Source: Deuterostichococcus epilithicus
Taxonomy: Eukaryota; Chlorophyta; Trebouxiophyceae; Prasiolales; Stichococcaceae
Assembly (NCBI GenBank): GCA_033439295.1
Contig: JAVTLE010000023.1
Coordinates: 372,001-436,000 of the forward strand
Direction of reading: 5' to 3'
Length of the DNA: 64,000 bases
Of the stretch, positions 35,181 through 64,000 are shown in pieces. The translations under genes and the position numbers were made by a program. The notes under the pieces are model-generated. The model did no database searches. It was not told the DNA's origin and saw only the letters and a program-made list of their open reading frames with translations. Each line of letters begins with the position of its first letter. Positions within the stretch are counted from its first letter, which is position 1.

Positions 35181-38137
35181 TCAGAAGGAACTGTACGACC
35201 GCGTGGGCTGCAGCTGGATGGGACCGATGCCGGTGAGCGTGCTTTTTAGCGACCGCGAGTGCGTCCACGGCGAGTTGAAGTAGACAAGGTCCATGTCCTC
35301 GTCCAGGCGCTGCACGGCAGGACAACGGATCTGCTGGATCTGCTTCACGCTGCGCATCATGTCTCTGCCAAAAACCCGTCAGGGTGAGTTGAAGCTCCCA
35401 AGGTCCGTGCCCTCGTCCAGCGTCCACATCAGACCAGGGGCGGCTGCTCAATCATCTGCATTGTTCAGAGGTTTTCAACTTCCTGAGCTGAGGCGCCCGG
35501 AAAGCTGAGCAGAGCACATGTGTGTGCCGCCGATCAGGATGTTGATGGCATTGTCAAGGCCGATGGCTGGCTGCCAGACCTATCAACTCGCAGACGTCGA
35601 AGCAGTCCTCATGATTTGGATTGTAAACAATGCAGCAGCACCGCTGGCTCTCAACTTACGGTACCCTGGCGCCTCACCTTTTTAGTCTCCTGCCGCTTGT
35701 AGTACCATGCCAAGAGCTGGGCGTGCTCCTTGCGTCCATCTTCTGCAGCGGGCATCGACATGTAGTCATGATTCATTCTTCTTGTAAATGTTCACCTGTA
35801 TGCCAGGATCAGTTCGAGGTCTCTGTCGGACGTTTGTGTGGCGGCTTCCTTGTCCGTCCTCAGGCTTTTGTGGCAAACAGTTCGGGCAGTTGATCCAGCA
35901 CATGAATGCAAATTTGCCGGACGCAATGGGATGCCATAGGTGCACTTCGCCTCTCTTTGTCCTTCAGCGTCTGCGGCAGAGATCCGAGGGTGTCAGACAT
36001 CGGTAGTAGTGTCGCTTTGATGCCACAAGCCCAGCCGACTGCCGGGGTTTGGGGCCTCTGCCGCCCGCACCGCGGCGCGTGCTTCAAGACGCCGGAGCTG
36101 CATCCCGCCCTCGCCCTGTTGACTAACCGCATGCAAATGGTGTCTCACAGAAATGACAGCCACAACGACTCGGGGTTTGAAACGAATTTCCAGTGGCTCT
36201 GGCAGTGCCACACATTGGGCTTCGGGCGGCGCGCCGTCGCCTTGCTGGACCAGCCAGACGACCGCGCGGCTCTTCCCAGCGACAGGGTCTCAGCAGGGTT
36301 CACTTCAGTATCAGCCTCACGTTGCTTTTGGGGGCGTGCCCTCACCCTGCTGCACCAGCCACACCACAGCGCGCGTCTCCTCGTGGCGGCCCACGCACTG
36401 CGCCAGGGTCTTGTCGCCGTCCAGCGGCTTGCCCGCGAAGTAGAAGGCCGCCGCCTCCGGCGGGATGTCGATCTGCAGGCCCTGCGCAGGAAGCAGTGCC
36501 TCACCATGCTGTCCTGATCGGCTGACAATACACGCGCCTGCGCTGCGCCAGCAGCTTTGCGACATAGTCCCACATTGTCCACTGCATATGCAGTGAACTG
36601 TCCCACTGCATATGCAGTAACCTGTCCCACCCCTGTCTTGCGTCACCGAGCTGCTGGCAGGCAGGGCTGCTGGCGGGGGTAGAGGCTGATGTGTACGGTA
36701 CCTGGCCAGGTGACAACACCATAAACAACGCAGGCAGCACTACTGTCACACAGCACTGTCACACAGAATCCGCACCTGCGCCGGAAGCTGCCTGGTGCCC
36801 AGCACCTCCTCGCTGAACGGGTCCCGCTCCAGCAGGCCGCCAGGAAACACGGCGGCCGCAGCCGCCTGCACCGCCGCGATGGCGGACTGCAGCGCGGCCA
36901 GCGTCAGCAGCTGCCGCTCCGCCGCTCGCTCCTGCAGCATGCGGCCATGGGTGGGTCCCGATCTGCAGGTTTCGTTTGCACGGCCAGTGCGAGCACCTGT
37001 GTCTCTGCTGCCCGCTCCTGCGGATGGTGCACGGCTGGCCTTGTCTGCGAAGAATTGTCTCCGACCGCAGATCGGCTCAGCCGAAGCTAGCACAAAGGTT
37101 TGACCGTCCGCTGTGACAGCCGGAAAAGAAGCCACCCATTCCCACAGAGTGTTCTTCGGTCATCTTCATCCCTGCAAGCCTTCCAGAAATCGTCCAGACT
37201 GCAGCACAACCTGTGCAAGCAGCCAGCTTAAGGCGGCGATCCACCCACTACGTGAGCTGCGCAGCGGCAGCGTCGCCATGCATTGCTAAACGACAGGTTG
37301 TGCGTAGAGCAGGATGCATGCGGAGAGTCTGCTCCAGGTGGAGCACCTTGTCAGTGAGTGTCACGGCCGCCAGCAGCGCAAGCTGCAGCTGCTAGGCAGG
37401 TCCCACCTTGGCTGATGCCTCTGCCGGCGGCAGCGCCCAGTCCACGTCAGTGCGGCATGCGGCATCAGCGGGCAGCGCCTTGCTCTGTGCCGCGGTCGCT
37501 GCCACAGGGCTGGATTCAGGCTGCCGGTCTCCAAGCGACAGGCCGGCCTGCTCTGTCATCGGCGCCGATGCCACCGCCGCCAGTGGTTAATGGGCGCCTT
37601 TCGGCCCAACTGCCTCTGCCGCGTTGGGGACAGCATCATCCGCGCCGCCGTCGCCGGCCGGCAGCTCTGCATCTGCAGCATGCTCGTCGCCGCGCAGGAC
37701 TGCCGCAGTGGCCGCCAGCAGGGTCTCTGCCGCCTCGGCCTCCGCCGCCGCAGCCCGTGCTTCCTCCTCGAATTCGGGCTGGATCGGGCCGTGCTGCACT
37801 AGACGCAGCCCTTCCTCGCACATCCTGCATCAGCAAGCCAGGATGAGCTCAATGGTTTCAATGTTTAGTGTAAGTTCAGGGTGCCAGAAGCAGCAAGCAG
37901 GAAATTGGGAGAAAGCGGTGGGCTGATGTGCAGCGCCGCGCGGTGCTGGAAACGAGATCGTGATTGGACGTGCGCGTCAGCGCATGCTCATATCGGGAAG
38001 CAGTGAGCACATGAGGGCGAACGGAGTGGCCTGTGGATGCGGCGGACCAGGTTGTGCATTTCTGCGGCGCTGGCAGCGGCCTGGCCGACCGGCGTGGCCG
38101 CCGGCGCCTCGATGAGGAACTGGACGCTCTCCTCCCT
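35181..38137 (-). CDS. CFAP298: CFAP298 (FBB18/C21orf59) homologue; first exon not found
   Basis: Cytoplasmic factor needed to assemble ciliary dynein arms; in Chlamydomonas it is FBB18. Exons on the minus strand: 38137-38031, 37824-37611, 37520-37407, 36931-36776, 36472 (or 36481)-36346, 35742-35678, 35309-35181; all phases join. Recognisable blocks are EESVQFLIEAPAATPVGQ (human ESQFLLQAPGSTE), MCEEGLRLVQHGPIQP, AVQAAAAAVFPGGLLERDPF (human VMIVYPMGLPPYDPI), DGDKTLAQCVGRHEETRAV (human KKLSDYVGKNEKTK), EHAQLLAWYYKRQETKK, RLDEDMDLVYFNSPWTHSRS (human RLEENDDDAYLNSPW) and the C-terminus ending SYSSF. An Ala/Glu-rich insert follows block two. The exon with the start codon was not identified. The first listed intron appears to have a GC donor (38030-38029). 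Confidence 0.82.
35287..35430 (-). repeat. Duplicated CFAP298 last-exon segment
   Basis: The start of the last exon (35309-35287, reading RLDEDMDLVYFNSP) has a second copy at about 35425-35389, which reads TLDEGTDLGSFNSP. The copy lies in the preceding intron, about 113 bases upstream of the real exon. Confidence 0.7.
36230..36400 (-). repeat. Duplicated CFAP298 exon end
   Basis: The real exon end at 36393-36335 reads ETRAVVWLVQQGEGTPPKA across its donor. A copy at 36286-36230, about 107 bases downstream in the intron, reads KSRAVVWLVQQGDGAPPEA. Confidence 0.72.
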
Positions 38138-38193
38138 CTGCATGTGCTAATTCCAGCTGGATGCTCTCCTGCCTCTGCATCTGCTAATTCCAG
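38120..38193 (-). repeat. 37-base tandem duplication at a CFAP298 splice acceptor
   Basis: Units 38120-38156 and 38157-38193 differ at three bases. Each carries a candidate acceptor (ATGCAG) and the start of the EESVQF exon, so the acceptor and exon start are duplicated. The inner unit is taken as the real exon start because it continues in frame. Confidence 0.8.
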
Positions 38194-38859
38194 ATGTGAG
38201 CTGAGTGTGATTGCATTGCTGATGCAAACTGCAGACAGCACTCCATGTGCGCAACACACGCCTTGGCGATGTGACCTTGACGTGCAGGAACACCATTGAT
38301 CCTAGATGACAGTTTGGTTCGTCGACCGTAATTCGAGGCCAGAGTCACGTAGTGGTTACTGAGACAGGGCACGCAAAGTGACTGCCATCAGGAACGGATC
38401 TGATGGAATGCAGAGAACGTGCGAACCTGCCAAGCTTGAAACATTTGATAAAGAATACAAACCGATGTAAACCCACTCGAACGGCCTCCAGACCGAAAAG
38501 TGAGGAAGCGAGGCGAGCGCGCGCGCCAGCTCTACGGTAGCCGGAAGCAGCTGCAGGCACAACTGCTTCTTATTGTGATGCGAAGCAATCGGGCCAACGA
38601 GCTCACAACCTATTTGTATCACATCAAGAGCGTTGTGGATGACTTTTGGCGGCCTCAGCCCAGCAGTTGATCATCAGACCTTTGCATCATCTCGGATTCT
38701 ATGTCTGTCTGCAAGTCTTGATATTGACAGATGCTGCACGAGCTTGATCAACTGGCTACTGTCTGAAGCTTCTAAGGCGATCCGCCGATCCCTGCTTCGA
38801 GACCTCAGCACGACACAGCGCAGTCCACTGCCGGCCCCACAAGCATTCTCGCAGCACGC
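38194..38859. other. Divergent region between CFAP298 and ACBP genes
   Basis: The missing first CFAP298 exon and both promoters should be here. A minus-strand open frame (38622-38356) has no recognised motif. No other feature is supported. Confidence 0.4.
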
Positions 38860-41800
38860 ATGGCGTCCTCGCACAGATCAGGCACGCTTGCCAGCCACCC
38901 AATTGCTGCAGGATCGGAACCACGCTCAGAATGGGACGCAGCGGCGCTTGACGCCTGTCGCAGCGGCGCCACCGTGGCGGGCGGCGCGGCGGAACTGGAC
39001 GCTCGATCTGACGAACCGCAGGACACCGGCAGACTGGAGGAGACCTTCCAGGCGGCGGCCGACAACGTGGCGCTCCTGCAGACCGCTGCGGGCCACCACC
39101 TCAGCCAGGACGACAAGCTGCTGTTGTATGGACTGTACAAACAGGCGAGTCCCTGTGCATCCAACTAACACCTTCCGGGGGCCTTCTCCTGTCTTGGCTC
39201 GTCCTCTCCTCTGGCACCTTAGCAAGCAAGACCAGCTGCTGCTGTAGCCTCTGCGCAGAAAGGCAAGGCGCCACAAATCCCTTGGCAATGCCCTGCCCAG
39301 TTGCCGGTGCTGCAAACTCATCTGCGGGGTCCGTTGTCGGTCAACTGCGTCGGGTGCCAGCCCATGAGGCATAGCTGCGAGGCGTGCCTGAGCAAGGCAG
39401 CAATGCCGCACGTCTGCGTGGCGGCAGTATGTTCTTAGCTCACAGCCTGACAGTCACCGCCTGCACATCAGCTCCTGGGCTGTGACACTGCTCTCGGCAT
39501 CAACCCGCAGCTGGCGATTACGGCGGGGACAGGTCCTTGAGACATCAATCTTCAGCATTCCGGCTGAAGGAGCACAAACTGCTGACATTCGGCTATGCCT
39601 CGCAGGCGCTGGAGGGACCTTGCCGCTCAGCAAAGCCGGCGTTCTGGGATGTCAAAGGCCGCGCCAAATGGTCAGTGGGTTGCCTGTCTCCGCGCACACC
39701 TGTCTGCCATGACTACAAACGGAAATGAGCTCACTCGGTTGCTGTTCTGCGCACACAGCACTGCCTGTTGTTACAGCTGCCTGCCGGATGTGCTGCCAAC
39801 ACGCAAGGCGTGGACGCTTCCCCAGCACCTCGATCAAGTTTGCGTCTGGCCCTGCGCGCTGGCCAAGAAAACCACAAGCGCTAGCAGAATTCTTTGCACA
39901 GCCAATCACACTCTCTATGCAGGGAGGCCTGGCACCGTTTGAGACACCTGCCGCCTGACGCCGCCAGGGCAGCATACATTCAGGTGGGATAACACTTGTG
40001 TGCGCCCGTCATGCCTAACGCTTTGGTCGAGACGACTCTGTTGAGCTGAGCAGCAGAGTGCGTGTATGGATGGTAGATGCGGCACATGCATCATCTGCGG
40101 CCCTGCACCAGTAATCGTGATTGCCAGAGGAACCTCATCTGAGGGCGCTCTTTTCATCAGCCTATTACCAGTCGCACGGGGATACTGCACAGGCAGTGGT
40201 GGATCTGCTTGGCTGGGTGCCGCCGGGCGGAGGCGGCGACGCTGAGGGCCGGCAGCAGCAGCAGGGCGGCAGTGGCGGCAGTGGAGGCAGCAATAGTAGA
40301 GACGGGGGCATTGGCGGCAGCTTTGGGCCCGTTGTCAGCACCCTGGCTGCCGGCGACAATGCGGCTCCAGATGAGGTGGGATGCCCGTGTTAGGAGTCCC
40401 TCTGAGAAAGACACGTAAACGTCCCTGGAGCCTGCCCTGCTGGCTTCAGTATGAGCACTCGCACGCTGCGGGGGCTGGTAACTTCTGAGATAACCCTGTA
40501 CACCCAGCAGGACCGCTCAGTGCTGGCTATCCTGCAGCCATGGCCCTGGAACTGGCGGTTGTGCCGGTCCGCATGAAGACATTCGTGCAATCTCGGCGGT
40601 CGAGCTCAGCAGTCCTTGCTGTCATCCTGACTGCAGGCGCCGTCGTCGCCGCTGCACGCCGCCGCCGCTCAGGATGATTCCGCTGCGGCAGCTGCAGCGC
40701 TTGATGCCGGCGCGGACGTCAACTCGATGGACGGCGAAGGCGCAACGCCGCTGCACTGGGCTGCGGACCGAGGATCTCTAGAGGTGTCTTGACAATTTTG
40801 TTCGCCACATGTCACGATCTCGAATTGGGGTGTCAGGCTGCCTGGAGACACGACCAAGCTGCTGAAGCACGTCCCGCTGCGCATGTGATGTCGAGACACG
40901 ATGGCAGTGCGCTCCTAGGCACGCAACCAAGGTGCCGAAGCACGTGTCGCTGCGCCTGTGCTTTCGAGACGAGATCGCTGTGCGCGCTGCTTGCTGCGTC
41001 TGCCATTGCGCTGCCCGCCACAGTCGTTTGTCAGGTGCTGGACTCAGACAGCAGCCGAAATTGCCGCGCGGCAGGATTGCCGCAGCGCTGCAGCTGTCAG
41101 TTTGCCGTGACGTCTTGCCAAGACTGCAGCCGACCATTGTGGCGCTGCCTCGGCTGCAGCTGGATGCTGGAGACGTGCACCGGCGCAGCTGTCGTTAGAG
41201 TGTCGAGTCGGCCACTGCCGCATGCAGAGAAGGACTGCAGAGGCGCTGCGCACACGGGTAGCATCCCAAAGCCGACCGCCTCCTTCGTGCAACCTGCACC
41301 ACAAAACGCATAGCCGGCGACCACGTCTTGTCGTGATGCATGACCATGCCTGCACGCAGGCGCTGGCGCTGCTCATACTTCGAGGCGCTCACCTCAATGC
41401 GGCCGACGCCGACGGTCAGACTCCGCTGCACTATGCCGCCCTGTGCGAGCAGGTGTGCATCCTGCTTCCGCCAGCCTGCAGCCAGCGCTCTGCGCTCGCC
41501 ATGCGCGGCGCTGGAAGCCGCTCCTCATCCACCCGCGGCTGCCGTTGTTGTGAGTACAGGAGGCCGTTTCGCATCGGGGGCGCACTGAGCTGGGTCGAAC
41601 GCACGTGGACTGCATTGTGACGTGCCCGCCAACAGCCCCTGTGCGCGCTCTGCACAGCTGCTGAGCGTGTGCTGGGGGGAGCAAGCCCCGGCGCCTGGGT
41701 CGCATGCCTGCGCGGCCTCTGCTGCGGCGGCTAGGGCAGTTGCAAAGCCTCTGGGTGTGGCACCCAAACGCGCACCGGGGGCGTCGCGGAGCAGCTGGCC

Positions 41801-42223
41801 GCAGCTGGTGTGTGTCCTCGGGCGACTGGCCGCAGCCCAGAACCTGCGTCATCCGTCTGCATGCCAAAACAGAGCGCAGTAGGGTTCATATGGGGCCCGG
41901 TCGGTGACAGTGCGCCGGCGCCGGAGCCAGTCACGAAACCAGCGCCCTGCTGTTGCAGCTGGTTAAGCTTGTTCGGGGTCTCGAAGGGGTGTGAATAACA
42001 CGTTTGCTGTCGTCCGTCCATCCTGCAAGCAAACAAACGGTTCCGCCGTGTTCGGTTTATCGAAGGTGAAACGTCGAAATTTCACGTGCAGGAGGGTGCG
42101 GCCAGACTGCTGCTGGAAGCTGGCGCCGATCCGGCTGCGCAAAACGGCGGCGGCGACGCACCTGCGGCGCTGGCACCCGCCGCCTGGGCGGCTTTGTGGG
42201 GTTCTGGCCAAACAGAGGGCTGA
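38860..42223 (+). CDS. Acyl-CoA-binding protein with ankyrin repeats (ACBD6/plant ACBP-type)
   Basis: Binds long-chain acyl-CoA esters; the ankyrin part likely recruits partners, as in plant ACBP1/2 and animal ACBD6. Seven exons give 321 residues: 38860-39144, 39606-39670, 39923-39983, 40193-40375, 40637-40783, 41360-41452, 42092-42223. The ACB domain (about residues 55-145) shows LEETFQAAADNVALLQ, LLLYGLYKQALEGPC, KPAFWDVKGRAKWEAWHRL and AAYIQ, with the ligand-binding Tyr, Lys and Trp in place. A Gln/Gly/Ser-rich linker follows, then ankyrin units ending DAGADVNSMDGEGATPLHWA, RGAHLNAADADGQTPLHYAA and RLLLEAGADPAAQNGGG. No transmembrane segment is seen, so it is probably soluble. Intron 1 uses a GC donor (39145, CAG|GCGAGT). 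Confidence 0.9.
40850..40992 (+). repeat. Imperfect tandem repeat in an ACBP intron
   Basis: Two units of about 70 bases (40850-40918 and 40920-40992) share GAAGCACGT, CGCTGCGC and TCGAGACACGAT-like blocks. They start just after the exon ending at 40783. They do not resemble the exon itself, so this differs from the exon copies in other genes. Confidence 0.55.
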
Positions 42224-42795
42224 GCGCTGTGACCCATTAATGCGGTGGCATTCGGGGTTCACCAGAAGTTTGCGTGCAAATCGGCGAGATTTTTAGGCGC
42301 GGCGGCTTTGCTGTCGGGGCCAGGAATCCGCCCGGGAAGCTTGCATTGTCATGTTTGTGGAGCGCTCGGCTGAGAGACGAGGAGTGATACCTGAAGTGTG
42401 CCCCAATACGTACATAGGTATTCAAGCTACAGGGTACCTCCCTACCCCAATCTCAAGAACGTGCGCAGCCACATGTGTTGCTCCAATGATCATCCACTTC
42501 CGTTTCAATCCATACTGGTTGCAGCAGTTGCAAGGCCAAGTACAGATGTCAGATCTGACTAGTCAACTGCCTGATAACATGTCCGTCCTGGCGATGTAAT
42601 ATACAAGATCGAGCAGCATGCAGTTGTCGCGGTCTGTTGTGGGTGTCTGTCACCAGCTGCCGGCAGGCACCCAACCTTCTCCTTTTCGTTCCACTGATCT
42701 GCTTCTGATGAGCATGCTTGCGCAAGACATAGCTGCTGGTGGCGCTGCAAAGGCGGCAGTAGATAGCAGCAGTCGAAGACCGCGGGCGACATTCA
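42224..42795. other. Convergent intergenic region
   Basis: Between the ACBP stop (+) and the cysteine-rich protein stop (-). A TGTAA at about 42594 could be an ACBP polyadenylation signal. No gene is seen. Confidence 0.5.
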
Positions 42796-43696
42796 TTAGC
42801 CAAACCTCGGGTCGAAAGGGTTCAGCACCTCGGGGTGGAGGCCGCAGCAGGCGCAGATGCCGGCCGTGCAGATATTGGTGCCAAAGCAGTCTGATGCACA
42901 GAACCTTGAGTGTCAGCGAATCAGTCAGGAGTCACGCTACAGTCAGGACGGGAACTTTGCTCACGAGCAGCATCAGGCGCCAGCGGTTGATGATCCAATC
43001 AGCAGGGCAGGCCATGGTCCGCAGCCAAAGACGCCAGGATGGACACACCGGAGTCCATGACGCAAGGGGCAAATTCACGCAGCCTGCAGCCCCGTACAGG
43101 GTCGCACAGCAGGTTCACATCTGCAAATATGAAAATCAATCGGTGAGCAGGCCCCTCTGCAGGGATGTGATGCATGGCTCGATGGTTACTACTGGGTATA
43201 TCAAGCGTTAGCGTGCATGGCTGATGCGTAATGCATGATGCATCTTCCTCAAATCTGTATGCGACACATTCAACAATCGGCAGACTGCTGGTCAGACTGC
43301 TGGTCTGACGCGCTTGGCGGAAACACATGCAACTGCGGCAAGCATGCACTGAGCAAGCTCGGTCTCTGCATGTGCTGCTTTCGCACTGCCAAGGCAGGGC
43401 TTATTCTCGCACCACCGCAGTCGTCGTCCTGGCCGCACTGGCCGCCTATGGGCCTCTGCGCAGCAGGTGGTGCAGCGGTGCATCAGAGCCGGGCTTTGCA
43501 GCACGACCCGTGCCTTGGAGGGTGTGCTGTCAGTAGATTGCAACTTCCAAGACGAACAGGAGCAGGAGCAAGGCAGGGGACAGCTGCGCACCCCGTTCTG
43601 TGCTGCCGATGGTAATGCCAAGAGAACGGCTGCAGCCAAAAGCACAAGCAGCCACGACTGGACCGAGGTGCAGTTGGGAATGCCCGATTTTGACAT
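42796..43696 (-). CDS. Small cysteine-rich secreted protein, unassigned
   Basis: Exon 1 (43696-43592) encodes a clear signal peptide, MSKSGIPNCTSVQSW, then LLVLLAAAVLLALPSAAQ. A later exon at about 43121-43005 reads VNLLCDPVRGCRLREFAPCV then ASLAADHGLPC. The last exon at about 42891-42796 reads CFGTNICTAGICACCGLHPE and ends NPFDPRFG and TAA. Spaced cysteines (C-x5-C-x8-C and similar) suggest a disulfide-bonded extracellular protein. The middle of the gene is unresolved: exon 1 ends in phase 0, whereas the next exon needs phase 1, so at least one exon is missing from the model. I recognise no family. Confidence 0.45.
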
Positions 43697-45301
43697 GATG
43701 CAAGTGATAACGCCTACAATTTGGATTCTTGGCTGTTGCATCGATGAGCATGCGTGCTGCTGCCGAGGTGAGATCTGAAAGACCTGCATGAGATCCCACT
43801 GTATATTATTTCCTCCTCGACACATCCAAGAGATCGCCGTTCGGGTGGGCCAAGATGCTGCTGTACGCTTTGGCAGGCAGATCTACTTCCTTGGACGACG
43901 CAGCGTGAAGCGGTATAGGTGCTCGGCCGTCATGGCACCGCATACACCCAGCATAAGATCGCGGCAAGTTGTAGCCTGAGGATGACTGTACTGGCATGGC
44001 CTGCGGCCTGCGCCTGCGTGAGTGCAGTGCATAACGACAGAATCAAACGGTCACGCCGCACAGCGACGCTCGGTTAGCCGTAGCCGCATCGCCGCTAGTG
44101 ATGGCGCCACAGCGTGGCGGGGCGTCGCAGCCATACCCAGCACAGCGCAGCAGCAGCAAACTTACGTCCCCGCACCCGAGCTCACTGCACCTCTAGCGCC
44201 GGGGGAGCACCAGACAAGCGCCTGCGCCCTGCCGACGACGGATGCACCCCTGCCAGCGGCAGCGCTGCAGCACGGCGGCGGCGCTGCTGCGGCAGCCGCA
44301 GCACTGCTTGGCAGCCGTGAATCCTGCGATCAGGCACTTTCCGATGCACCGGTGGCAGGGTCAACGGACGGCATCCATGCGACCAGCGCCGGTGCTGCCC
44401 GCAGTCGCTCTTACCCCCGGTCCGGGCCCACCCGATCTCGGCGAGCTGTGTGCTGTCGGCGAGGTGAGAAATCCAGGTCGCGCGCACCACTATTGGCAAT
44501 GCACACATTGTCCGCGCAATGGTCTCTGCCGTTGAGGTCGAGCTGTGGGCGGCCGCAGCAGCTACTGCCGCCCGCATGAGCAAAGCCACCAGCCGCCGGC
44601 ATTCCCACAGTAGCAGCTGCAGCAGATGAGCAGCAAGAGCAGCAGCAGCAGCAGCAGCAGGAGTGGCGCCTAATGGTGGTGGGACGTCTGGATCATCATG
44701 CTTAGGTAGCAGGGGGTGGAGCGGGGGGTGGGCGCCTGGTGTGCAAGCAGCCCTGTCCGACATGTACTATGGGCGCAGGCTGGTGGCCAGCCGCATCCTG
44801 GATAGGCAGCAGGCAACGCCGCCGGGGCCGCAGCTACCCAGCAGGTGCAGAGGGCGGACGTGGCGCACTTCTGAAGCGTCCTATCGGCGTCTTGTACGGT
44901 GCAAGCGGCCCCACAGGGGTGAGGGGGTCCACCGACGCATCCGCGTCCAGCACGCAGGAACGACAGGTGACCGTAAAAACAACAACAAACTGGCGTTTAG
45001 CTGCACACCCGCTTCACTTTGCCATAGTCCTTTGACGGTCGATCCAGATCCCAAACCAATCTGACAAAATCTATCATTTGTGTCCGAAGTCTAGAAAAAG
45101 GCACAGCCGAGCGACAAGCTGAGTACACAATGCTCGATTGTGAATGGAGAGCAGGTGCATGACGGACTGTACTTACGACGATCACGGCTGCTGATTGGAT
45201 GCTCAATGCTGCGTTGTTTGCTTGAGCTCACTGTAGCAGGAGTCTTTCTGCCCCATCTAAGAACGCGCTGACGCAAACATGAGCGCGGTTGGCTGCGGGC
45301 A
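43697..45301 (+). other. Region with possible unassigned plus-strand gene
   Basis: Plus-strand stretches with coding-like composition occur at about 44160-44400 (rich in Ala, Pro and Thr). A possible exon ending GPPDLGELCAVGE (44459) can join by a short intron to VELWAAAAATAARMSKAT (44535-44590). LSDMYYGRRLVASRILDRQQ lies at 44755-44814 and LLKRPIGVLYGASGPTGVRG near 44870-44930. A (GCA)n run lies at 44637-44660. I could not connect these into one phased model and recognise no domain. Confidence 0.3.
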
Positions 45302-48300
45302 TTACATGCCCGCCGTCGGCAACATGAGCGTCGAACCAGGCTGAAAAGCAGGAAAAAAAGTTGCTTGAGCACCACCACGGAGTCTACAATCTGAATACAG
45401 GCGGCGTCAACGGCAGCAGTAGCGGCAGCAGCAATGGAATTGATGAACACACGTACCTCTCCAATGTAGGCCGGCGAAGTCGAGGTGGAAAACTGGACCA
45501 TGGTTGGATACTCCGTGCCATTACGAACCGGCACGGTGATGACGCTCCTGAAAGCCGGAGGATAGATGCGAACGATGGACACAAAGCATCGAGAGGAGGT
45601 TGCTCTTGCTTCAGGCAGGACGGGCTCGAAGGAACCCGTCATGAAGCACTGCTACCAGGCGTGTTCCAGGTCTGACACATGCATGGTGCTGGCTCTCAAA
45701 CCTTCAAAGTGGTGGTGGTTGCTGTCGACGATGCTCGACGGAGCAGGCAGCAGCACTTGGCGCAGTAGCAGAAGTGGTGCCGCTGAGATCTGGGGCATAT
45801 AAATCTGCACCTGGCAATCAGCTGCTCAGAGGCCGCAGTGTTGGAGATGCGCAGCGTCCACGGCAGCAGCGGCAGCCCGCTCAGCTGCCACACAGCGCCT
45901 GCGAGTTGACACCTCGGGACTGTGTGGCGGCATCACACAAGCTCACATATTCGAGCGTGCCAATAAGGATCATGGCACGCGGACGACGATATGGGACGGC
46001 AGCAATAACATGTGCACAGCCCAGACCATGTCCACGCCATGTGGGATGCGAGAGTCGCAACATGCTGGCTGCATGCCGCGCAGCAGCGCACCATAGGCAT
46101 TCTTCATCTGGCTCCATGTGCTGTTGATGACCGTGGAGTGCTGCACAAAAGACAGCGTACACTTTTGTGTATTACATATGCAGACAGCAAAAGTGAGCGG
46201 TGCCTACAAAGTAGGCAGCAGGCACTACGAATAGCGGCAGCAGCGAGGTGGGAAACTGAGTCGCCAAGCAAACCGTGGTATGCCGTCGTAGTAGCCGTCC
46301 CCCAGTGCAAGCATGTGGCAAACTGGGCCCACCATAATGGAGGAGCGCAGCTCGACGCTGGTGACAGTGCCGCTGCCGGCGACGCTCTCAAGGGCGACCT
46401 CCAGAAAGCCGCCGTCAGAGGGCCGGTAACTGACGACCTTGGCGACGATGGGGCCGGGCGGCTTGCATTCAATCTACACAGGGGATGAGGAAGGGTCACA
46501 TTTTGCCTGCGGAGAGGATGCTGATATGTCTGTCTCCACACCCTGATTGCACACACGCATGCGCACAGCCAGAGTGTATGACAGCTGATGCTGGCTTCCT
46601 GCATGCGTCCAGCTTGCACTCGTCAGCATGCATGCCGTGCCCAGATAGGACAGTGCAGCTTCATGCGGATCAAAACGCAAGCCACAATGTACGGCGGACC
46701 TGCTGCCAGGTCACGGACACCGAGCCGAGCGCTGGGTTGGCGAGGAACCGGCTGAAGGTGAGGTAGTGCACGTTGATCTTGCTGCGCGAGCAGCGGGCGC
46801 AGGAGTCCACGACCTGGACCACCGCTGGCTGCGCATTGCGCGGGCAATTTGCCTGCGAATATGCGTACGCAGCAGATTGGGTTGGAGGTATGTTCGGTCC
46901 CAGAGGTTGCAATCAGGGAATTGCATGGGCTGCACAGTCTGACGAATGTCATTAGAAGTCTGACAGGCAGCAGCATCGCCTCTAGCGGGTGCGCTGGCTG
47001 ATGACCACATGTTCACACTCACAATGATGCTGTCACAGCGGCACCGAGACTCAGAGCCGCACCGCATCGCTGCATGTAACCTGGATGCATTTGCCGCAGC
47101 CGACCTTGGGCGAGGTCTGCAGGCAGAGCGGCACACAACCACTGTCAGAGGCATGGCAGCAGGTTTGTTGACAGTTCAAGAGATGCAAGTCCCCAGCAGC
47201 AGGATGATGGTGCCAAGGAGATCGTCCTTCCTGCAGGTCAACTGACGCTGCACACACGCTCATGCAGCAGTGCATGCGGTTTTGCGGAGCAAATTCAAAC
47301 AGCACAGGATACTAAACTATACTGTGTAGCCTTGCGTACATGCGCGCCGGCGGCGCCGGTGGCGAGGCTGCTGTTGGCACTGATGCCAGCGACGGCCCAG
47401 TAGGGCCACTCGTCCGCCGCCAGCGCGCCATAGCCGCATGCGCCCTGTACTAGGCTGCCTGTTGCGTTGTATGGGTTGCTGTGGTCCTGCAGGCAGGCAG
47501 TTGGGGGCGCAAGGTTGCGGTTAGGCAGAATCGTGAAAACTTGGAAGGCGCTCAACATCGTATGTGTGTCGTGCCGATATTGCGTGCAGCACGAGAGCCA
47601 TGTGATGCACATGAAGTCGATCTGCAAGCCTCAAAGGCCGGATCTTCGCACGGTCAGTCCATCTGATGGCACACCGCCGGCAGCGCCTGCATGCGCCGCA
47701 ATGTTGCCTGTGGTGTTCGTGAAGCTCGTCTGCCACTCAGGCATACCTGAGTGCTTGCACTCAGCAGGCTAACCAGAGTCGCCTGAAAGCATTGATCAGT
47801 GAGGCATACATGCAAACAGTTCCATCAAACAAAGCTGCTTCGACCGCAGTCTAGCAGGGCAGTGGCAAAAGCAAAGCTAGCATGCAATGGTTCCCCTTGT
47901 CGCGGAAGGTTTGTATCAGACTTGCGCCAGCCCCGCCTCTTCTACCAAGGCCGAATAGACACGTGCTTGTGCTGTGTATGCTAGGCAATAGCCTGATGTC
48001 AATCACACATCATCGCCAGCACCACACCTGCGGGCCGCCGAACATGGAGGCGGTGCCGCTGACAGCAGGGCCGAGCGCTGCGCCAGGCGAGCGGCTGCCG
48101 TCTGCAGTAGTAGGAATTGCCATCAGCAGTCAACCGATGAAATCAAAGAACGGCGTAAAACGAAGAACGCGGCACATTCTTCTTGTCGAGAGCAAATGCA
48201 GCAGCTTTGCCGCAATCGCTCGATCAGCGCAGGTTGTTACAGCTGCGGCCCTCGGCAGTGACTGGCACACCAAAGGATTTGGGATAGCAGCAGTAACCAC

Positions 48301-48383
48301 GCACAGGGCTCGGGGATGGCCGAGCAGGCCGCCAGCAGGCCGGCAGCGAGCAGAGCCGCGAGCAGGCGGCCACCAGGCGCCAT
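45302..48383 (-). CDS. Expansin A
   Basis: Secreted wall-loosening protein with a six-stranded double-psi beta-barrel and a C-terminal CBM63-like domain. Exons: 48383-48305 (signal peptide MAPGGRLLAALLAGLLAACS), 48101-48028, 47782-47747, 47486-47340 (QGACGYGALAADEWPYWAV), 47116-47063 (GCGKCIQVTC), 46852-46700 (VVDSCARCSRSKINVHYLTF, ALGSVSVTWQQ) and 46473-46333 (IECKPPGPIVAKVVSYRPSD). These seven join in phase. About 45890-45825 follows with WQLSGLPLLPWTLRISN, then SVITVPVRNGTEYP near 45550, and 45340-45302 ending LMLPTAGM and TAA. The phases around the 45.9 kb exon are unresolved. The barrel has DSCARC where classic expansins have the HFD triad region, so lytic residues are uncertain. Confidence 0.8.
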
Positions 48384-50168: not shown

Positions 50169-50211
<43 letters not shown>

Positions 50212-52550
50212 GCAGGTTCTCGGGCTTGCGGCAGCACACCATGCTGAGCATACATACGCGGCATATGCTCATGACGCTTTCTTTGACGCTTGGCAAACTG
50301 AACTTTACCCCCTTACCTGGCTGCCATGCAGGCATGGACCTGGCCCAGGCCGCCTGTGCCTTTGGGCCTGTCGACCCCAACTCCTGGGGCGGCAGAGGCC
50401 TGCAGGTGATGAGGCGGCATTGCCGCACTTATGCTGCTGCTCGTGTGTCTGCGCCTGGAGTGCAGCCGCTCGCTGATTGCGTGGCACCAAATCGAGGGAA
50501 ACTCCACCAAAGCACACTGGCCGTTGGCCTGTTCTGTTTGCCCTCCCATGGCGGTGTTTGGGTGTGAGTTCCTTCCCGCATGTCTCATGCAGATCGTTCA
50601 AAACCGCGCAGGTTGCCGCGCTCTCCGATGTCAACCCTGAGTACACCGGCAGCTGCGGCCGCTGCTACGAGATCCGCTGCGCCAACATGGACTTCTCGGT
50701 GCGTTTTGAAAACCACAAAGTGGAACATCTCTGGTCGGCAGCCGCGGCCCTGTTGGCAGCCTGGCAGCCGTTTGGTGAGGCTATTAAATGCTGGCAGTGT
50801 TCTTGCGACTCAGCAGCATGCCCCATCTTTTGGGCAGCCAGCACCGGCTGTCTGCCACGCATGCATGCCGCTGCGCTTCGCTTTAGCAAGCCGAAGGGCA
50901 GCCCGGAGTCAGGACAAACTCTTATTGCTGAAGTTGAGAAGGCTCATGGTTGGGCTACACCTTTGATGCAGGATGCCTATGGCGCGCAGCTGTCTAGGAC
51001 CTCCGCATGCATCAACCCAAGCGCTTCCATCGTGAGCGCCCCCTGCTTGCACCGCTACCGTCATATGCATAGGATACAGCTTTGCATGTGCACGTGGCAG
51101 CCGTTGCTGTGGCGTAATCCTGTCCTGTGCTCCCGCCTGCCTGTTCACACTTCCACGTGATATTTCAGCTGATTTTGCAGCGTGCATTTCTGCACGCCTA
51201 CTGCACCCTTTGCCGTATAACATGCCATGCTGCCGCGGCTCTGGTGCTCCTCACAGCCCCCAGAGCAGCGCTGTGCTTTCTCGCATAATGCTGCCCAACT
51301 GGCGCTGTGCTGCGGGCTGCTCCTCTCAGCCCATTGCGTGCCTGCATATGCAGCTGGTCAAGATCGTGGACACCTGCCCGTGCAACTACCCCTCCAACCA
51401 GTACGCCAACGGCCGCTGGTGCTGCGGCGACATGACGCACTTCGACACCTCCTACTGGGTCTTCAACCTGGTACGCGTGTCTTCTCTGACGCTCATCCTT
51501 CTGTGCATGTAGCATCATGATGCCGCGCTTCCTGTCTGGAGGGAGGTTCAGCCGCTGAGACTGAAGCGCTGCAGCGGAAGGCAGCGTCGGAGTGCACCGT
51601 GTTGTCGGACTTCTGACGTTGTTTACCACCCTCTCTCCTGTGCAGCTGGCCAACCCACGAGTCGGCGTCATCGGCATCAACTGGCGTGTGGTGCCCTGCG
51701 ACTACGAGCCCGCCCACGATCTGGGCCCCGTCGGAATGCCGCCCGGCTACCCGGATGCTTCATATTGTGCGTTGATATAATTTGTCCCTGCGAATCCTGC
51801 TGTTTCTGCGTGCTGCTGCCGCTGCCGCTGCTGCCGCCACCTCATGCCGCTGCTTTTGTGATTGCCGACATCATGGCTGTACGTTTACCCTGCCACTCGA
51901 GCCAACTGACGAGCAGTCGTGTCCCGCAAACCACAGACCCAATGCCCGGCGGCTACCCCGACGACCAAGTTGACTTCAACAGTTCTGCGACCGCAAGCGC
52001 CGCCTCCACCGCCGCAAGCGCCTCGAGTGGCAACGCCACGGCCTCTGTCAGCACGTCGGCTGATAACACACAAGGTCTGTGGAGCGGCATGAAGAATGCT
52101 GAAACACACACAGATCACGAAATCTAGGAGCTGCGCATGAGCCGCATGCACAACGGGCTGGATGAGGGTCCTGCAGTTCTAACAAAACCAGCTGTCCTGT
52201 GAAAGAAGCCAGTGCTGGCGTCAGGACTTCGACTGCACCCTGGCACCTTGGTCTGTGTCGCTGGCCGCAGGTCCCTCGCAGCCGCCGCCAGCGACGCCCG
52301 CGCAGGGGCCTCCTATGCCCCCGATGATGCCCCCGAGCTCCCCGATGGCACCGCCGAGCTCTCCTCAGGCGGCGCCGCCGCCAAGCTCGCCTCCCGCAGG
52401 CCCCTCGCAGCCGACGCCCGCGCAGGAGCGGCCCATGATGCCCCCGAGCTCACCGATGGCACCGCCGAGCTCGCCTCCATCGCCACCGCCGCCTCCCCCT
52501 CGCCGCCGCCGCCTCCCCCCTCGCCGCCGCCGCCCACCAGCTGGCGATGA
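49360..52550 (+). CDS. Expansin B with Pro-rich tail (apparent frameshift)
   Basis: Secreted expansin-type double-psi beta-barrel protein with a hydroxyproline-type tail. Exons: 49360-49456 (MTKILHVLLLVAALVAAM signal peptide), 49935-50051, 50332-50405 (LAQAACAFGPVDPNSWGG), 50612-50698 (SGSCGRCYEIRC region), 50972-51031, 51354-51470 (VDTCPCNYPSNQ, RWCCGDMTHFDTSYWVF), 51646-51766 (GVIGINWRVVPCDYEP), 51937-52074, and 52271 onward; phases match throughout. GDMTHFDTS is the expansin HFD motif. The tail has repeated PSQP/PAQ units, then SPPPPPP. The frame breaks at a C-run near 52493-52499: as read, it goes to an Arg-rich end at 52707, while the +1 frame continues SPPPPPPSPPPP and stops at 52550. 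Unlike expansin A, I see no CBM63 domain. Confidence 0.8.
50174..50209 (+). repeat. (CAG)12 microsatellite in an expansin B intron
   Basis: Twelve uninterrupted CAG triplets lie within the intron between 50051 and 50332. They could serve as a length-polymorphic marker. Confidence 0.95.
52272..52486 (+). repeat. Pro-rich coding tandem repeat in expansin B
   Basis: Two units (about 52272-52368 and 52402-52486) encode PSQP...TPAQ, then MMPPSSPMAPPSSP. They make the linker/tail and are probable sites of proline hydroxylation and arabinosylation. Confidence 0.75.
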
Positions 52551-52707
52551 GCGCCAAGGGCCAGGGGCCAACGTAGTTGCGCTGCGTCAAGCGCAGCTGG
52601 GCACTGGGAAGGGGCTGCCGCGCTGCCGCCGGTGCCCCTGGCGTTGTGTGGTTCTGCATTGCGACGTGTTTCAAGAAGCAGGCAGAAGAGGTGACAGGAA
52701 CTTCTGA

Positions 52708-54115
52708 GTGAACGTGTATCATTGAACCGCTTAGGAGTCTAGCTATGGTCTGATCGGACCGTAGGGTCTGATCGGACCGTTACCTATTGGATTGTGGTCG
52801 GGCCCATTAGGAGCAGCGCTTCATTCAGCATTTCTCAGCCGCATCATTCTTTGAGTGGGATTGCAGTGCCCGCCTGTGTATATTTCCTCGCCATGCTTTG
52901 CAGGTTCTGCTCGAAGTCGAATGTAACAAGAAGAGCCACACAAAGTACATGCTTGCACGTGCGAAAGATTTCCCCTGCCCTTCCAGGAGCCCGTGAGCGC
53001 CCGCGGCGCTGTGTGCTGCTGCGTCCAATGCCCTGGAAAGGCCTGCAGAACAGGACTGCTTGGCATGTTACATATATATAGATCCGGCTTTTGTGTCGCA
53101 GGCAAGATATACATGGCTCGTCAAACCTGCGCAGATCGAGTGCAAGTTGCGCAGTCCGATCGTCGCCAAGGTCACCAGCTTTGCCCTCGGGCGGCGACTT
53201 GCGTTCTGGAGGTCGCCCTTCACAGCATCGCCGGCAGTGGCGCCATCACCAGCGTTCATGGCGCTGGCTGCTCCTGCCGCCCACCTCAATAACAGAAAAC
53301 CACGAAGCGGCCAATGGTGCACTGCGAGCAATGGTGCATGCGGCCCGGGTTCTTCACCTCAGCTCGCCGAGCTCGGGCATGCCTAGACAGGGCGGTAGGA
53401 TGGCTGCTGGCAATGCCGCCCGCCGCCCTTGCCGTTGGCTCATCTAGTTGCGGCTGCTCACGGCGGCTGGGCAGTGCGGCGGCGGCCGCATCAGCGTCAC
53501 CGCCATGTTGCGGCGGGGTGCGGCTGCTGCCGGCTGGGCGCTGGCGCCCATCCGGTCCCTTGGCGCCCGAGGCGCCACAGGCCCGAGCATGGGCGGGGGA
53601 GAGGTTTGATGCTGCTGCGCTGCGGTTGGCGTGGCTGCGACGCCGCTACACTGGGGCACGATCGTCAGCGGCGCTGCGGCTGCAGCTAGCTGAGCGCCGC
53701 CGGCGCCGGGCTGGCCAGCGCCTGAGGTAGGATAGGAGCGCGCTGCTGCGGAGCGGTGCCGTTTGCTCGCCGCTGGGCTGTCACTGCCATGTGCCGCCGC
53801 TCTGCCGTCGGCAGCCCATCCAGGATCCAGGACGAGCACAGCAGCGTCACCACTCACCAGTAGCTCCCAAATTGAATGGCTCGAGCATGTCGTGCCGCCC
53901 CGCTCCAGCTGGAACATCTGTACAAGGATCTGTACTAAAGGCTCGGCACGTGCCGAGCCTTACGAACGTGATCCCGACCTTCCTGCTTACGATCCGGCTT
54001 GCCGAGAGGCTTCATATTCAGCGATCATGCAGTTGCAACCCATTCTGCTCGTTTCCAGCCTCTCCTTAACGCTTTCCGTCTCCTGCACCGCTTTCAGAAG
54101 GCAACCTCCGAAGAC
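52708..54115. other. Region downstream of expansin B
   Basis: Apart from the broken expansin fragment at 53135-53262, this region has a 16-base direct repeat (GGTCTGATCGGACCGT) at 52747-52785 and a GC-rich stretch at 53440-53760 that is open on both strands without a recognisable product. The reductase promoter should be near 53.9-54.1 kb. Confidence 0.4.
53135..53262 (+). pseudogene. Expansin C-terminal domain fragment, frameshifted
   Basis: After an acceptor-like GCGCAG the sequence reads IECKLRSPIVAKVTSFA, matching IECKPPGPIVAKVVSY of expansin A. It then continues as VLEVALHSIAGSGAITSV only in another frame (expansin A: FLEVALESVAGSGTVTSV). The segment between has 32 bases where expansin A has 30, so the frame is broken. 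No barrel domain is found beside it; the only neighbour is expansin B, which lacks this domain. Either a dead copy, or a lost C-terminal domain of expansin B. Confidence 0.6.
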
Positions 54116-56345
54116 ATGGCGCACACGGCAGTTGTGACCGGCGCGACTGGCTATGTGGCCACTGAGATCGTCTCGCAGCTACTCCAGAAGGTGATGCACC
54201 GGTGCAGTGTTCGGCTGCATTGTATATCATGTGCGAATCTCCACGCATTGCGGCCTAGACGCAGCGACCCTGACGCTTTGACTGGCTTTTGCGTTGCACA
54301 GGGGTACAACGTGCGTGGAACGGTGAGGTCAAAGAGCAATCCTGCCAAGTATGCCACCCTCACCGCGCTGGCAGAGGCCCTGCCAGGTGCGACAACACGT
54401 TGACGAAACCAAATCTTCTAGTGTTTGTCTGAGCACTCAACGGAGTGCAACCATGAGCCATGCGACACGCATGGAGGCCCTCCGATGTGCTTGCCGCCGC
54501 AACGGCACCCTGCCTGCTGCCCGTCAAGGCGCAACAGCTGACACCGATGATCAGTGTACTCGCCACTGACTTTATCACCGGTGACCTTCCTCTGCCGTAG
54601 GCAACCTCGAGCTGTTTGAGGCGGACCTGACGACGCCAGGCAGCTATGATGCCGCAGTCAAAGGCGCCGACTACGTCTTCCACGTCGCCTCCCCGGTGGT
54701 CTTCGGGGTGAGCGCTGCACTCCCTCGACTGTCTTGCCACCTGACTCTGAAATTTCTGGCAGTGCGCTGCAGCCATCTGTGTGGCCCGGCTCCTTCATGC
54801 ATGGAAGCTGTGCTGCGGCGCGCTGGAGGACGATGGATGCTCTGCCGCAGGGAGACCCGGTGCGCGACATCATAGACCCGGCCGTCAGTGGCACCAAGAG
54901 CCTGCTCAGCAGCGTCGTCAAGTATAAGGACACCGTAAAGCGCGTCGTGCTGACCGGCTCCGTCGTAGGTGAGGCCACATGCGCAGACAGCAGTGTATAA
55001 TGTGTTTGGCGCTGCTGCAGAGAAGGCTGCGTGGTGCCTCCTGCACGACATATTCGAGCCACATGAACAATGTAAGAACACACACGATAATGGGGGATCA
55101 TTCGTTGTGAGGCTGAGCTGTACTGATCAGGCGCCGCTGCTGTGCCTGCTCTGCAGCGGTTTTCAGCACCTCAAACCCGGCGCCTCCCCTGAATGGGACT
55201 GCATACACGGAAGCCGACTGGAACCGGACGAGCGAGCTGCCGGCGGAACCGTACCATGTGTCCAAGGTGAGCTACATAGTGACGCCTAATATTTCCCATC
55301 ATGTGCAGGCCCTCCTATCCCCTGCCGCGCTGCTCTGCGGGTGTAGTGTGCTGTGTGGATCAAAGCTCGAGAGCTTGTGCACTGATGCATCGTTAACTTG
55401 TGCAAGCACAGGTGAAGGCGGAGGAGGCTGCCTGGGAGATCGCTAAGGCGGAGGGCCTCGACCTGGTGGTGGTCCTGCCGTCTCAAGTGCTGGGCCCGGT
55501 CCTGACCCCCAGCGATGCCACCTTCAGCGTCCAGTGGTTCAAGGTGAGCAGGATAAGGGTTTCATTCTGTAGATGCTTGATGAGTGTCGAGTGGCGCCGA
55601 TGCAGCGCCACTGCTACCTACTACTGTACTGGCAGCGCCTCCCACTGCTGCTCGGTCTGCTATGTTACAGCAATGCTGACAACGCATGATTCGCCTAAGC
55701 TCGAGGAGGTCTGCTGCATGCACCTGTGCACGCGCTGGTGGCATCGTACCAGCAGCCCGGCAGCCGCACTGGCATGGCTGCACTGATTGAGGCAGTCGTG
55801 ATCGTGCTCTTTTTGCATGCCGCACGCAGAGCCTGCTGGAGACTGGCACGGTGCCGGCACAATTCAGCGCACAGATCGACGTGCGGGACACCGCCAAGGC
55901 GCACATCCTGGCGGCGGAGGTGCCGACCGCATCCGGCCGCTACATCATCTCGCTGAACCACTCCCCGAAGCTGTCTACAGCTGTCAAATGGCTGCAGGTG
56001 CGGTCTGTGCATGTTCAGGTTTCTGGCTTGGACGGCGAACGGCACATTGCGCATGCCATCAGCGTTTCATGGCGGTGCCTTGCTCCGGGGTGGGCATCGC
56101 TGTTAGACAACATGTGGCATTTGCTGCCGCTGACGCACACGTGCGCGCTACAGGAGCGCTTCCCGGAGTACGACCTCGCGGCGGTGACCGAGGACGCGCC
56201 TGCGGAGGCGCCCGTCGACAATAGCAAGGCGGCCAAGGAGCTGGGGCTCAGCCTGACGCCGGTTTCCACAACGTACATCGACATGGCCGTCACACTTATC
56301 ACAACGGGCATTGCCCACCCGAAAGCGAAGGGCTCGGCTGCTTAG
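54116..56345 (+). CDS. NAD(P)-dependent reductase, DFR/CCR-like extended SDR
   Basis: Short-chain dehydrogenase/reductase of the extended (dihydroflavonol 4-reductase/cinnamoyl-CoA reductase-like) class; probable cytosolic carbonyl reductase. Eight exons give 328 residues: 54116-54190, 54302-54386, 54601-54707, 54851-54968, 55157-55266, 55412-55543, 55830-55997, 56154-56345. The N-terminal nucleotide-binding loop is VVTGATGYVATEIV, where the third glycine of the usual TGxxGxxG is Ala. GYNVRGTVRS, GADYVFHVASPV, RVVLTGSVVG and EADWNRTSELPAEPYHVSK follow; YHVSK carries the catalytic Tyr and Lys. Later blocks are LVVVLPSQVLGPVL and IDVRDTAKAHILAAE. The protein ends HPKAKGSAA. All introns are GT-AG. 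The substrate cannot be told from sequence; a flavonoid role is not implied. Confidence 0.9.
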
Positions 56346-57384
56346 AGACAGCTGCCACGGGTGCTGTACGCCGCAGCCTGGCTGCTGTATGGCTTGTGCT
56401 GTTAACAAGAGTTCCCAAGAAACTTGGCGGCACAGCTCGCAGCCTGTACCTGCTTTTCACTTGCGATATTCTGCGCACTATTATTTCTGTGCTGTCATGG
56501 TCACCAGCGGCAGACTCACGACTGCTTTCTCATTAGCCTTTTCAGGTGTTTTTAGCGTGTTGTGACGAAGGTTTGTTCGGACATTGGATCTACAACTGAG
56601 TGTATATGGCGTTTGTAAACGGCGTGAGGGTGTTAACACTCAGAGGAAAACCAAAAACCATAGAGCACTTTCCTGGCCTTCAAGTCAGCTTGGAAACATA
56701 TATTCCTCAAATAAACCAGGATCATTGATGCGGCTGCTCCGATTAACAAAGCAGCAGCGTCAGCATCAGCAGCAGCAGCAGCAGCGGCGGCGACTATCTC
56801 CAAGATGATGTAGTTGTGGCCCTCTCGTTGATTCAGCCACCAACTTCATTTCTCGAAGATAGAAGTGCGGCTGCCTAGGAGCCCTTGCTAGCCGCCTATG
56901 CTTCCATTCGCGCAACAGGTGGTGCGCAAGTGCATGCCATCAGCCGTCACCTGCAGAATTGGCTCGGGATCACTGACGCAGGCTTGAATCCAGTGAAACG
57001 CTGCCTGTGACAATACATGCCGCCGCCCCACGCACCGACGATCTATGAGTTTGCAGTATCGTGCGGCACTGCGGCGGCGCTGCATGCTCCCATTCATACT
57101 GCCACTGCAGCTATCAACATAAGCATCTCAGCTGGTGGAAATCAATCTGTCGTTGTGTCTCGCACAATGTGTGCTTTCCCGAAGGACACCTTTGCAGCTT
57201 TTGCTATAAATTTGGCAGATTTGGCGGGAGAGCCCCAGCAACGCAACAGCTTCCCCCGGATGCAATGGACAAATTTGGTCTCCGTTGAGCCGCGGTTGTG
57301 GTCATATTTGGTCCAGTCTGAGGCATTTCGACATCTGCTCCGTACTAGGGGGCAGTTGCACTTACTGTGCGCACAAGTACCGAG
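56346..57384. other. Intergenic region with CAG-type repeat
   Basis: A TGTAA at about 56611 may end the reductase transcript. A degenerate CAG/CAT run lies at about 56748-56788. No gene is seen; the phosphoglucomutase promoter should be here. Confidence 0.5.

Positions 57385-64000
<6,616 letters not shown>

Follow-up and report, generated by a model that had tools for sequence, protein, structure and literature searches.

Short direct repeats of exon pieces in introns of the green alga Deuterostichococcus epilithicus as probable remains of local duplication

Introns in a 64,000-nucleotide stretch of the green alga Deuterostichococcus epilithicus (GenBank assembly GCA_033439295.1, contig JAVTLE010000023.1; C19:372001-436000 of a 46.79-Mb genome in 21 contigs; hereafter the window) hold short, decayed copies of adjoining exons, which raises the question of what process left them there and whether exons are its target. 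An earlier note on this DNA had listed such copies in genes for CFAP298, phosphoglucomutase (PGM), GT61 and GT92, and had attributed them to a recurrent local duplication that copies exon edges. The gene content (CFAP298, phosphoglucomutase, an expansin-like gene, short introns) is itself in keeping with a green alga. Based on the window and on further contigs, the copies are probably the remains of small, local, same-strand duplications, produced by the repair of breaks or of stalled synthesis and arising in many places in the genome.

Local direct repeats in the window and in other contigs

Besides the window, 100 kb of contig C1 (the C1 block, in which position 1 is C1:500001) and 10 kb each from C3, C7, C12, C16, C5, C10 and C14 were read, giving a total sample of 234 kb from nine contigs; earlier counts are based on a 204-kb set and are marked as such. 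An annotation-free scan, in which 32-base windows with at least 24 identical bases were tallied by offset, yielded 18 (window) and 64 (C1 block) matches per 100 offsets at 100-150 bp, against a background at 1-3 kb of 0.1-0.3 and 0.4-1.5, respectively. After masking of low-complexity windows and merging of events with offsets at most 8 apart, 121 local direct repeats were called at 40-299 bp compared to 22 at 1-3 kb, a density of 5.17 per 10 kb where 0.12 was expected by scaling from the 1-3 kb offsets. Removal of near-identical alignments reduced the 121 events to 113 (110 to 102 in the 204-kb set). Local dinucleotide shuffles (ten replicates) gave 0.4 and 0.6 events per replicate in the window and the C1 block, respectively, and 50 kb of E. 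coli contained a single event, which is a weak control as this DNA is intron-free and of lower GC content. The excess over chance was observed on several chromosomes, while the 10-kb stretch of C5 had no event.

The repeats were mostly in direct orientation, as had been stated for the first cases, with 21 direct (offset 20-399) and 1 inverted event (offset 32-399) in the window, and 83 direct and 7 inverted events in the C1 block, an independent 100 kb. Start-to-start offsets of 80-140 bp accounted for 59 of the 113 events (scan of 40-299), with a peak at approximately 110-120 bp in the 204-kb set. The distance of 40-135 bases originally proposed was thus roughly right for the bulk of the events, but some cases in the window lie at 185-273. 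No correlation was detected between offset and exon length (Spearman 0.10, p = 0.52), and exon length was rejected as the determinant of the offset.

Copies of exon pieces in introns

Exons were mapped with a home-made gene finder, as a consensus over 18 model runs, in which each of nine settings was used once as such and once after a single round of retraining. Five rounds of self-training lowered the exact recovery of hand-made exons from 28 to 24 of 32 and were dropped; most of these 32 exons had also served for training, and two of the hand-made ones, the last of PGM, were removed after this recovery test because they were out of frame. Each predicted intron (n = 520) was locally aligned to its own flanking exons, with a score of at least 42 taken as a hit. 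A copy of a flanking exon was found in 40 introns, compared to 3 in the shuffled introns that the earlier note had suggested as a control, 9 in the reverse-complemented control and 1 with foreign exons; each control was one replicate, and a foreign exon could be shorter than the intron's own. The excess of the reversed over the shuffled control may reflect a few inverted copies or stems.

At a score of at least 40, 48 hits were obtained, of which 21 copied the upstream and 27 the downstream exon. The offset fell at 80-140 bases, where the earlier note had expected enrichment, in 27 of them, and in 30 the copied exon block reached to within 5 bp of the exon edge, in broad agreement with the remark that most copies include a splice site. 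The recurrent local duplication process suspected from the window is present both there and beyond it. Among ten proteins picked by the author for a Pfam check, those of CFAP298 (PF11069), GT61 (PF04577) and GT92 (PF01697) were identified, and seven other genes that carry copies or repeats of this type in the DNA read here were confirmed, one of which (IF3_C) scored below the Pfam cut-off.

Exon focus and parent selection

Based on the gene-finder classes, one copy lay in an exon in 52 of the 113 events, both in 15 and neither in 16, with 30 mixed, whereas sliding the exon map predicted 42.2, 7.5, 37.4 and 25.9, respectively. Pairs outside exons should vanish sooner because both of their copies drift, while exon pairs drift on little more than one side. 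When this visibility was weighted in a simple manner, the expected number of exon-free events became 25.0 or 30.3 and that of both-exon events 20.0 or 12.1, depending on the exon rate assumed; the 15 both-exon events observed lie within the latter range. The focus on exons can largely, perhaps not wholly, be attributed to selection on the parent exon while the copy and the intron drift. Differences between exon and copy fell on the three codon positions in 174/828 (21%), 161/830 (19%) and 229/822 (28%) of the cases, which would be consistent with constraint on the parent and little of it on the copy. In the PGM gene at 62.4-62.6 kb, two copies (62429-62484 and 62558-62590) both resemble the exon (scores of 46 and 37) and not each other (15, p = 0.67), a star-like decay which supports selection on the parent exon.

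Proposed origin and meaning

At the level of enzymes, we infer that a break or a stalled synthesis would be repaired either by duplication of a whole tandem unit or by copying a short nearby stretch, on the sister or the same strand, and joining it in, with a copied block of about 30-100 bp and a start-to-start offset mostly of 80-140 bp. A duplication over a splice boundary that leaves one exon intact would be tolerated, since splicing removes the additional copy. Selection would then hold the parent exon while the copy and the intron drift, so that only the exon-derived part would stay recognisable; rarely, the copies would supply both splice sites and the duplication would become a new intron.

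If the density found here holds genome-wide, approximately 24,000 events would be present in 46.8 Mb, as extrapolated from a small and non-random sample. The alga would then keep gaining intron sequence by local duplication, and some introns may be observed while they are forming. A piece of a flanking exon is still visible in 7.7% of introns (40/520, the controls of 1-9 not being subtracted), and, as parent exons are conserved, they could serve as a slow clock to date duplications in fast-changing introns. The offset of about 115 bp calls for a physical cause, such as break geometry, nucleosomes or the length of the synthesis tract.

Several observations weigh against this origin. The exon and intron classes come from a home-made gene finder. 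The 16 exon-free events remain fewer than expected after visibility weighting, and a residual exon preference may exist. Offsets were divisible by three in about 59 of 110 events, above the expected third, including 11 of 13 both-exon pairs, explained by in-frame survival, 22 of 48 exon-intron pairs and 7 of 14 exon-free pairs; the 22 of 48 suggests that some copies judged intronic are actually coding. In only 6 of the 33 pairs whose spacer length made them usable (out of the 48 hits), the sequence past the copy resembled the spacer (p ≤ 0.05), two of these pairs coming from arrays. Finally, the copies gave 104 weak non-local matches, and the 25 of these 104 that were listed span 16-71 bp.

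Alternative explanations

That all events are whole-unit tandem duplications, with spacer homology lost through fast intron decay, seems unlikely though by no means far-fetched. Three-unit arrays were examined after exclusion of a coding minisatellite and a variable-number tandem repeat in the C1 block and with one array per locus (23 chains reduced to 12 rows); the window's own arrays, in PGM and GT61, fell below the thresholds of this test. In the 12 arrays, spacings differed by a median of 10 bp compared to 49 in random pairs (p = 0.0004), and spacers were alike in 8, one of these a coding repeat. Arrays with near-equal spacing and matching spacers are true tandem units, and their retained period favours an all-tandem origin, as do the combined residual homology of the pairs (p = 0.0015, Fisher; p = 0.012, Kolmogorov-Smirnov) and partial flank matches seen by eye in some young pairs (C1 block 19670, 78611 and 96704). 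However, simulated whole-unit tandem duplication predicted spacer-like sequence past the copy in 10.7-27.1 of the 33 pairs, depending on the rates, more than the 6 observed. In a flank test on 62 events with 25-base flanks, the mean z was -0.30 in exon-intron pairs (n = 40), whereas the exon-free pairs (7) do show flank homology (1.18), and among 17 young events inspected, some at 91-93% identity had no visible flank similarity (e.g. C1 block 35875-35932/35965-36022 at 93% and 70998-71036/71096-71133 at 92%). As the pairs mostly lack homology beyond the block, tandem duplication alone appears insufficient and a copying step would be needed; both kinds, tandem units and short spaced copies, probably occur. 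Exon edges would be truly over-duplicated if breaks or template switches favoured exon-intron boundaries, for instance through transcription, R-loops or exon-bound nucleosomes. The shortage of exon-free events relative to both the shifted map and the weighted expectation points that way, as do the 30 of 48 blocks that reach an exon edge, compared to 21% if evenly placed in the exon. We nevertheless regard such targeting as decidedly unlikely: the excess of both-exon events over the shifted map vanishes after weighting, an intron copy would need a near-edge source in any case with an offset of about 115 and exons of about 130, the offset does not follow exon length, and the gene finder may favour coding-like copies. 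Moreover, the duplication process extends beyond exons, as at 40841-40985 in the window, and the idea of a process that copies exon edges holds for the local duplication but not for the edges alone, with neither copy in an exon in 16 of 113 events and both in 15.

The copies had also been considered a possible source of new exons or alternative splice sites; the tests made here gave no sign of their use as exons. Of 27 copies, 12 (44%) retained the splice dinucleotide, fewer than the 63% that neutral decay would leave, exon-copy differences in exon-intron pairs were spread over all codon positions, and the alignment of PGM is unbroken across the three covered exon junctions. The 12 retained dinucleotides, the 15 events with both copies called coding and the predominance of multiples of three among such pairs would be expected of functional alternative exons formed by tandem exon duplication, an explanation which appears highly improbable for the copies at large. 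An assembly or sequencing artefact is scarcely conceivable, as errors would give near-identical copies while the exon-intron copies are about 7-30% diverged from their parents on several contigs, and telomere repeats are present in the assembly at one end each of C1, C3 and C5 (among the matches listed). A shared inserted element was rejected, since no spacer family was found in the 204-kb set, where 3 non-local spacer matches of 17-25 bp were detected; longer dispersed matches amounted to 14 rows in these 204 kb. Some or all duplications could instead have formed when a staggered break was filled in around a telomeric-repeat insert, leaving a duplication on each side. Two young C1-block duplications enclose nearly pure telomere-like sequence, and spacers were telomere-like in 13/84 (p ≤ 0.05) and 8/84 (p ≤ 0.01) cases, or 11/76 and 7/76 with an edge-matched intron control that left out exon-free events. 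In addition, the telomere unit CCCTAAA ranked first of 1169 seven-base units in non-coding excess (66 vs 2.6), followed by the variant AACCCTG (96 vs 13.0). However, the spacer test was run after these two cases had been seen and includes both, about nine in ten spacers are not telomere-like, exact 9-mer loci lay near an event in 2 of 12 cases where 10.5% of bases do, and looser scoring found 24 introns compared to 8-86 for 19 permuted control units. Telomeric inserts therefore have a very slim chance of explaining the duplications, and were rejected as the main cause; loose scoring showed nothing special, exact-word counts did, and they count as a minor lead that is in part post hoc. As such a lead, telomeric filler at breaks would be in line with an origin by repair. 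A broader scheme is very unlikely as a whole: breaks in and near exons would be repaired by fill-in of long staggered ends, often around a short telomerase-made insert, introns would grow and occasionally arise from duplications of exon edges some 115 bp apart that bracket telomere-like filler, and edges would be true hotspots.

Telomere-like words (AAACCCT/AGGGTTT and AACCCTG) occur away from contig ends, e.g. at approximately 899, 22447 and 48602 in the window, and CCCTAAA repeats were also present in a C4 stretch besides the contig ends named above (among the matches listed).

A probable intron gain by duplication

A predicted intron in a mitochondrial-carrier gene (C1 block 78661-78774; L009:8661-8774; C1:578661-578774) is 114 bp long, equal to its offset of 114, and 20/20 bases match next to its two splice sites, which occupy homologous positions in two copies. 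Judging from its sequence, this intron was probably gained by duplication, in what would be the textbook form of such a gain (cf. PMC4974935). It is the one clear predicted case among 548 introns, and weaker matches (at least 15/20) numbered 5 compared to 1.4 expected on each side. The proposition that introns are generally products of duplication, with length equal to offset, was rejected on this count, and most copies would sit inside pre-existing introns.

Comparison with known systems

Short local duplications as such are known, in vertebrates as doublets and repair-mediated duplications and in human and plants as small tandem duplications; the present events stand out by their density, by an offset that is short and peaked and by how few copies are inverted. 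Mammalian doublets show a peak near 1 kb. They were reportedly described as same-strand by Thomas et al. in 2004, a trait shared by the present events. Small tandem duplications are said to have been described in rice by Vaughn and Bennetzen in 2014.

The earlier remark that no standard element was known to do this is not upheld: a precedent exists in doublets and repair-mediated duplications, which can include exons and splice sites (PMC2671141). Doublets, described there as short local duplications near each other, resemble the present events in that a short copy (tens to hundreds of bp) lies close to its source, but the copies here are decayed and their offset peaks at 80-140 bp. Pace et al. 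(2009) described the capture of proximal DNA leading to repair-mediated duplications of exons, partial exons and splice sites inserted in introns, including two full-exon cases reported as lacking later constraint (PMC2671141). The local copies of exon pieces and splice sites within introns are alike in both systems. In human, however, these duplications have a mean distance of 1.2 kb and a median length of 147 bp, and a reverse-orientation exon copy was reported (PMC2671141), whereas here the distance is about 115 bp and the copies are shorter and mostly direct. The scale of about 1 kb was not found in the present sample, where 59 of 113 offsets fall at 80-140 and events at 1-3 kb are the minority (22 vs 121).

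Small tandem duplications arise at double-strand breaks (Schimmel et al. 2021; PMC8355091) and are likewise direct, small and local, and the three-unit arrays fit them; their units abut, whereas in the majority of the present two-copy cases the spacer seems unrelated. The gain of introns by tandem duplication was described in 2016 (PMC4974935) and resembles the C1-block intron, bounded by two copies of an exon segment, but it is clear in a single intron here. Introners, reported chiefly in lineages that evolve fast, green algae among them (PMC9860276), also add intron sequence across a genome, but they share one sequence among many loci, unlike the spacers observed here. Short interstitial telomeric sequences have been reviewed, TTTAGGG being a known algal telomere unit (PMC6410037); they correspond to the short telomere-like stretches inside chromosomes, which here are mostly of one or two units, lie in introns and have a weak link to duplication. 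A literature search on exon-fragment tandem duplications in green-algal introns returned no paper, a result that carries little weight.

Cases in the window

All cases named for CFAP298, PGM, GT61 and GT92 were recovered (Table 1), each scoring above all 2000 single-base shuffles of one partner (p ≤ 0.0005). Three were found in CFAP298, as listed before; for PGM, where three or perhaps four had been counted, copies were found in four introns; the three-unit case of GT61 was joined by an additional pair, and the GT92 case was confirmed.

Table 1. Parent exons, copies and tandem duplications in the window (positions are those of the window).
Feature	Position	Strand	Details
GT92 parent exon end	3420..3461	+	35/42 identical to 3537-3578
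GT92 decayed copy of exon end, in following intron	3537..3578	+	offset 117
GT61 decayed intron copy of extra pair	26973..27026	-	44/51 identical to 27129-27186
GT61 parent exon of extra pair	27129..27186	-	offset ~160; 44/51 identical to 26973-27026
GT61 parent exon, three-unit set	27607..27695	-	Pfam PF04577 gene
GT61 decayed copy, unit 2	27749..27831	-	67/80 identical to 27607-27695
GT61 decayed copy, unit 3	27908..27995	-	63/74 identical to 27607-27695
CFAP298 parent exon	35262..35340	-	predicted coding 0.93
CFAP298 decayed copy	35377..35453	-	57/76 identical to 35262-35340; offset ~114
CFAP298 copy	36207..36289	-	66/81 identical to 36314-36410; offset ~105
CFAP298 parent exon region	36314..36410	-	predicted exon 36346-36481
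CFAP298 parent exon end	36892..36954	-	predicted exon 36776-36931
CFAP298 decayed copy	36978..37038	-	45/61 identical to 36892-36954; offset 86
Tandem duplication, two units of 37	38120..38193	.	92%; unit 1 overlaps weak predicted exon
Tandem duplication outside exons, two units of 72	40841..40985	.	offset 73; 78% of 72
PGM first decayed copy (3' splice site, start of exon)	58648..58732	+	62/80 vs exon at 58878
PGM decayed copy 2	58743..58825	+	57/67 vs exon at 58878
PGM parent exon	58878..59061	+	covered by the alignment to 6sno (PGM1-type)
PGM decayed copy (3' splice site, start of exon)	61675..61706	+	26/32 to 61763-61794; offset 88
PGM parent exon	61771..61865	+	alignment to PGM1-type enzyme
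PGM decayed copy	62429..62484	+	44/56 vs exon at 62656; offset ~213-218
PGM decayed copy	62558..62590	+	27/33 vs exon at 62656; offset ~105
PGM parent exon	62656..62762	+	alignment to PGM1-type enzymes
PGM copy of exon end and 5' splice region 62723-62832	62908..63012	+	offset 185; 77% of 103

The hand-built PGM model aligned to the solved PGM1-type enzyme 6sno over residues 11-417 with short gaps only and with no gap at the junction that precedes each of the exons at 58878, 61771 and 62656, while the junction after 62762, outside this alignment, was spanned by another PGM1-type alignment; the PGM copies therefore sit in introns. The best block of the last PGM copy pairs 62908-62953 with 62723-62767 (40/45). 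In GT92, the splice site was placed at 3461/3462 by eye, whereas the gene finder ended the exon at 3449 (intron 3450-3643). The CFAP298 copy at 36207-36289 was also called coding by the gene finder, and its decayed status is less certain. The weak exon overlapping the tandem duplication of 37-base units (38090-38135) was predicted in 10 of 18 runs. The pattern does not occur in every gene, no event being listed in the 204-kb set for the 7 introns of the DFR gene or the 6 modelled introns of the expansin gene.

Other repeats were present in the same regions. Two 24-bp units with a palindrome-like CCACTGCATATGCAGT lie in the CFAP298 region (36571-36613), and tandem repeats with offsets of 111-129 occupy 52258-52507, in a proline-rich stretch after expansin-like exons. 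The segments 53126-53255 and 53604-53700 are inverted and 76-78% similar to 46355-46482 and 44063-44171, and may represent a fragmented, reversed copy of portions of a gene at a distance of 7-9 kb. More distant matches of 82-85% in the window (602-664/21392-21454 and 2442-2496/8627-8681) fit several GT92-like gene copies.

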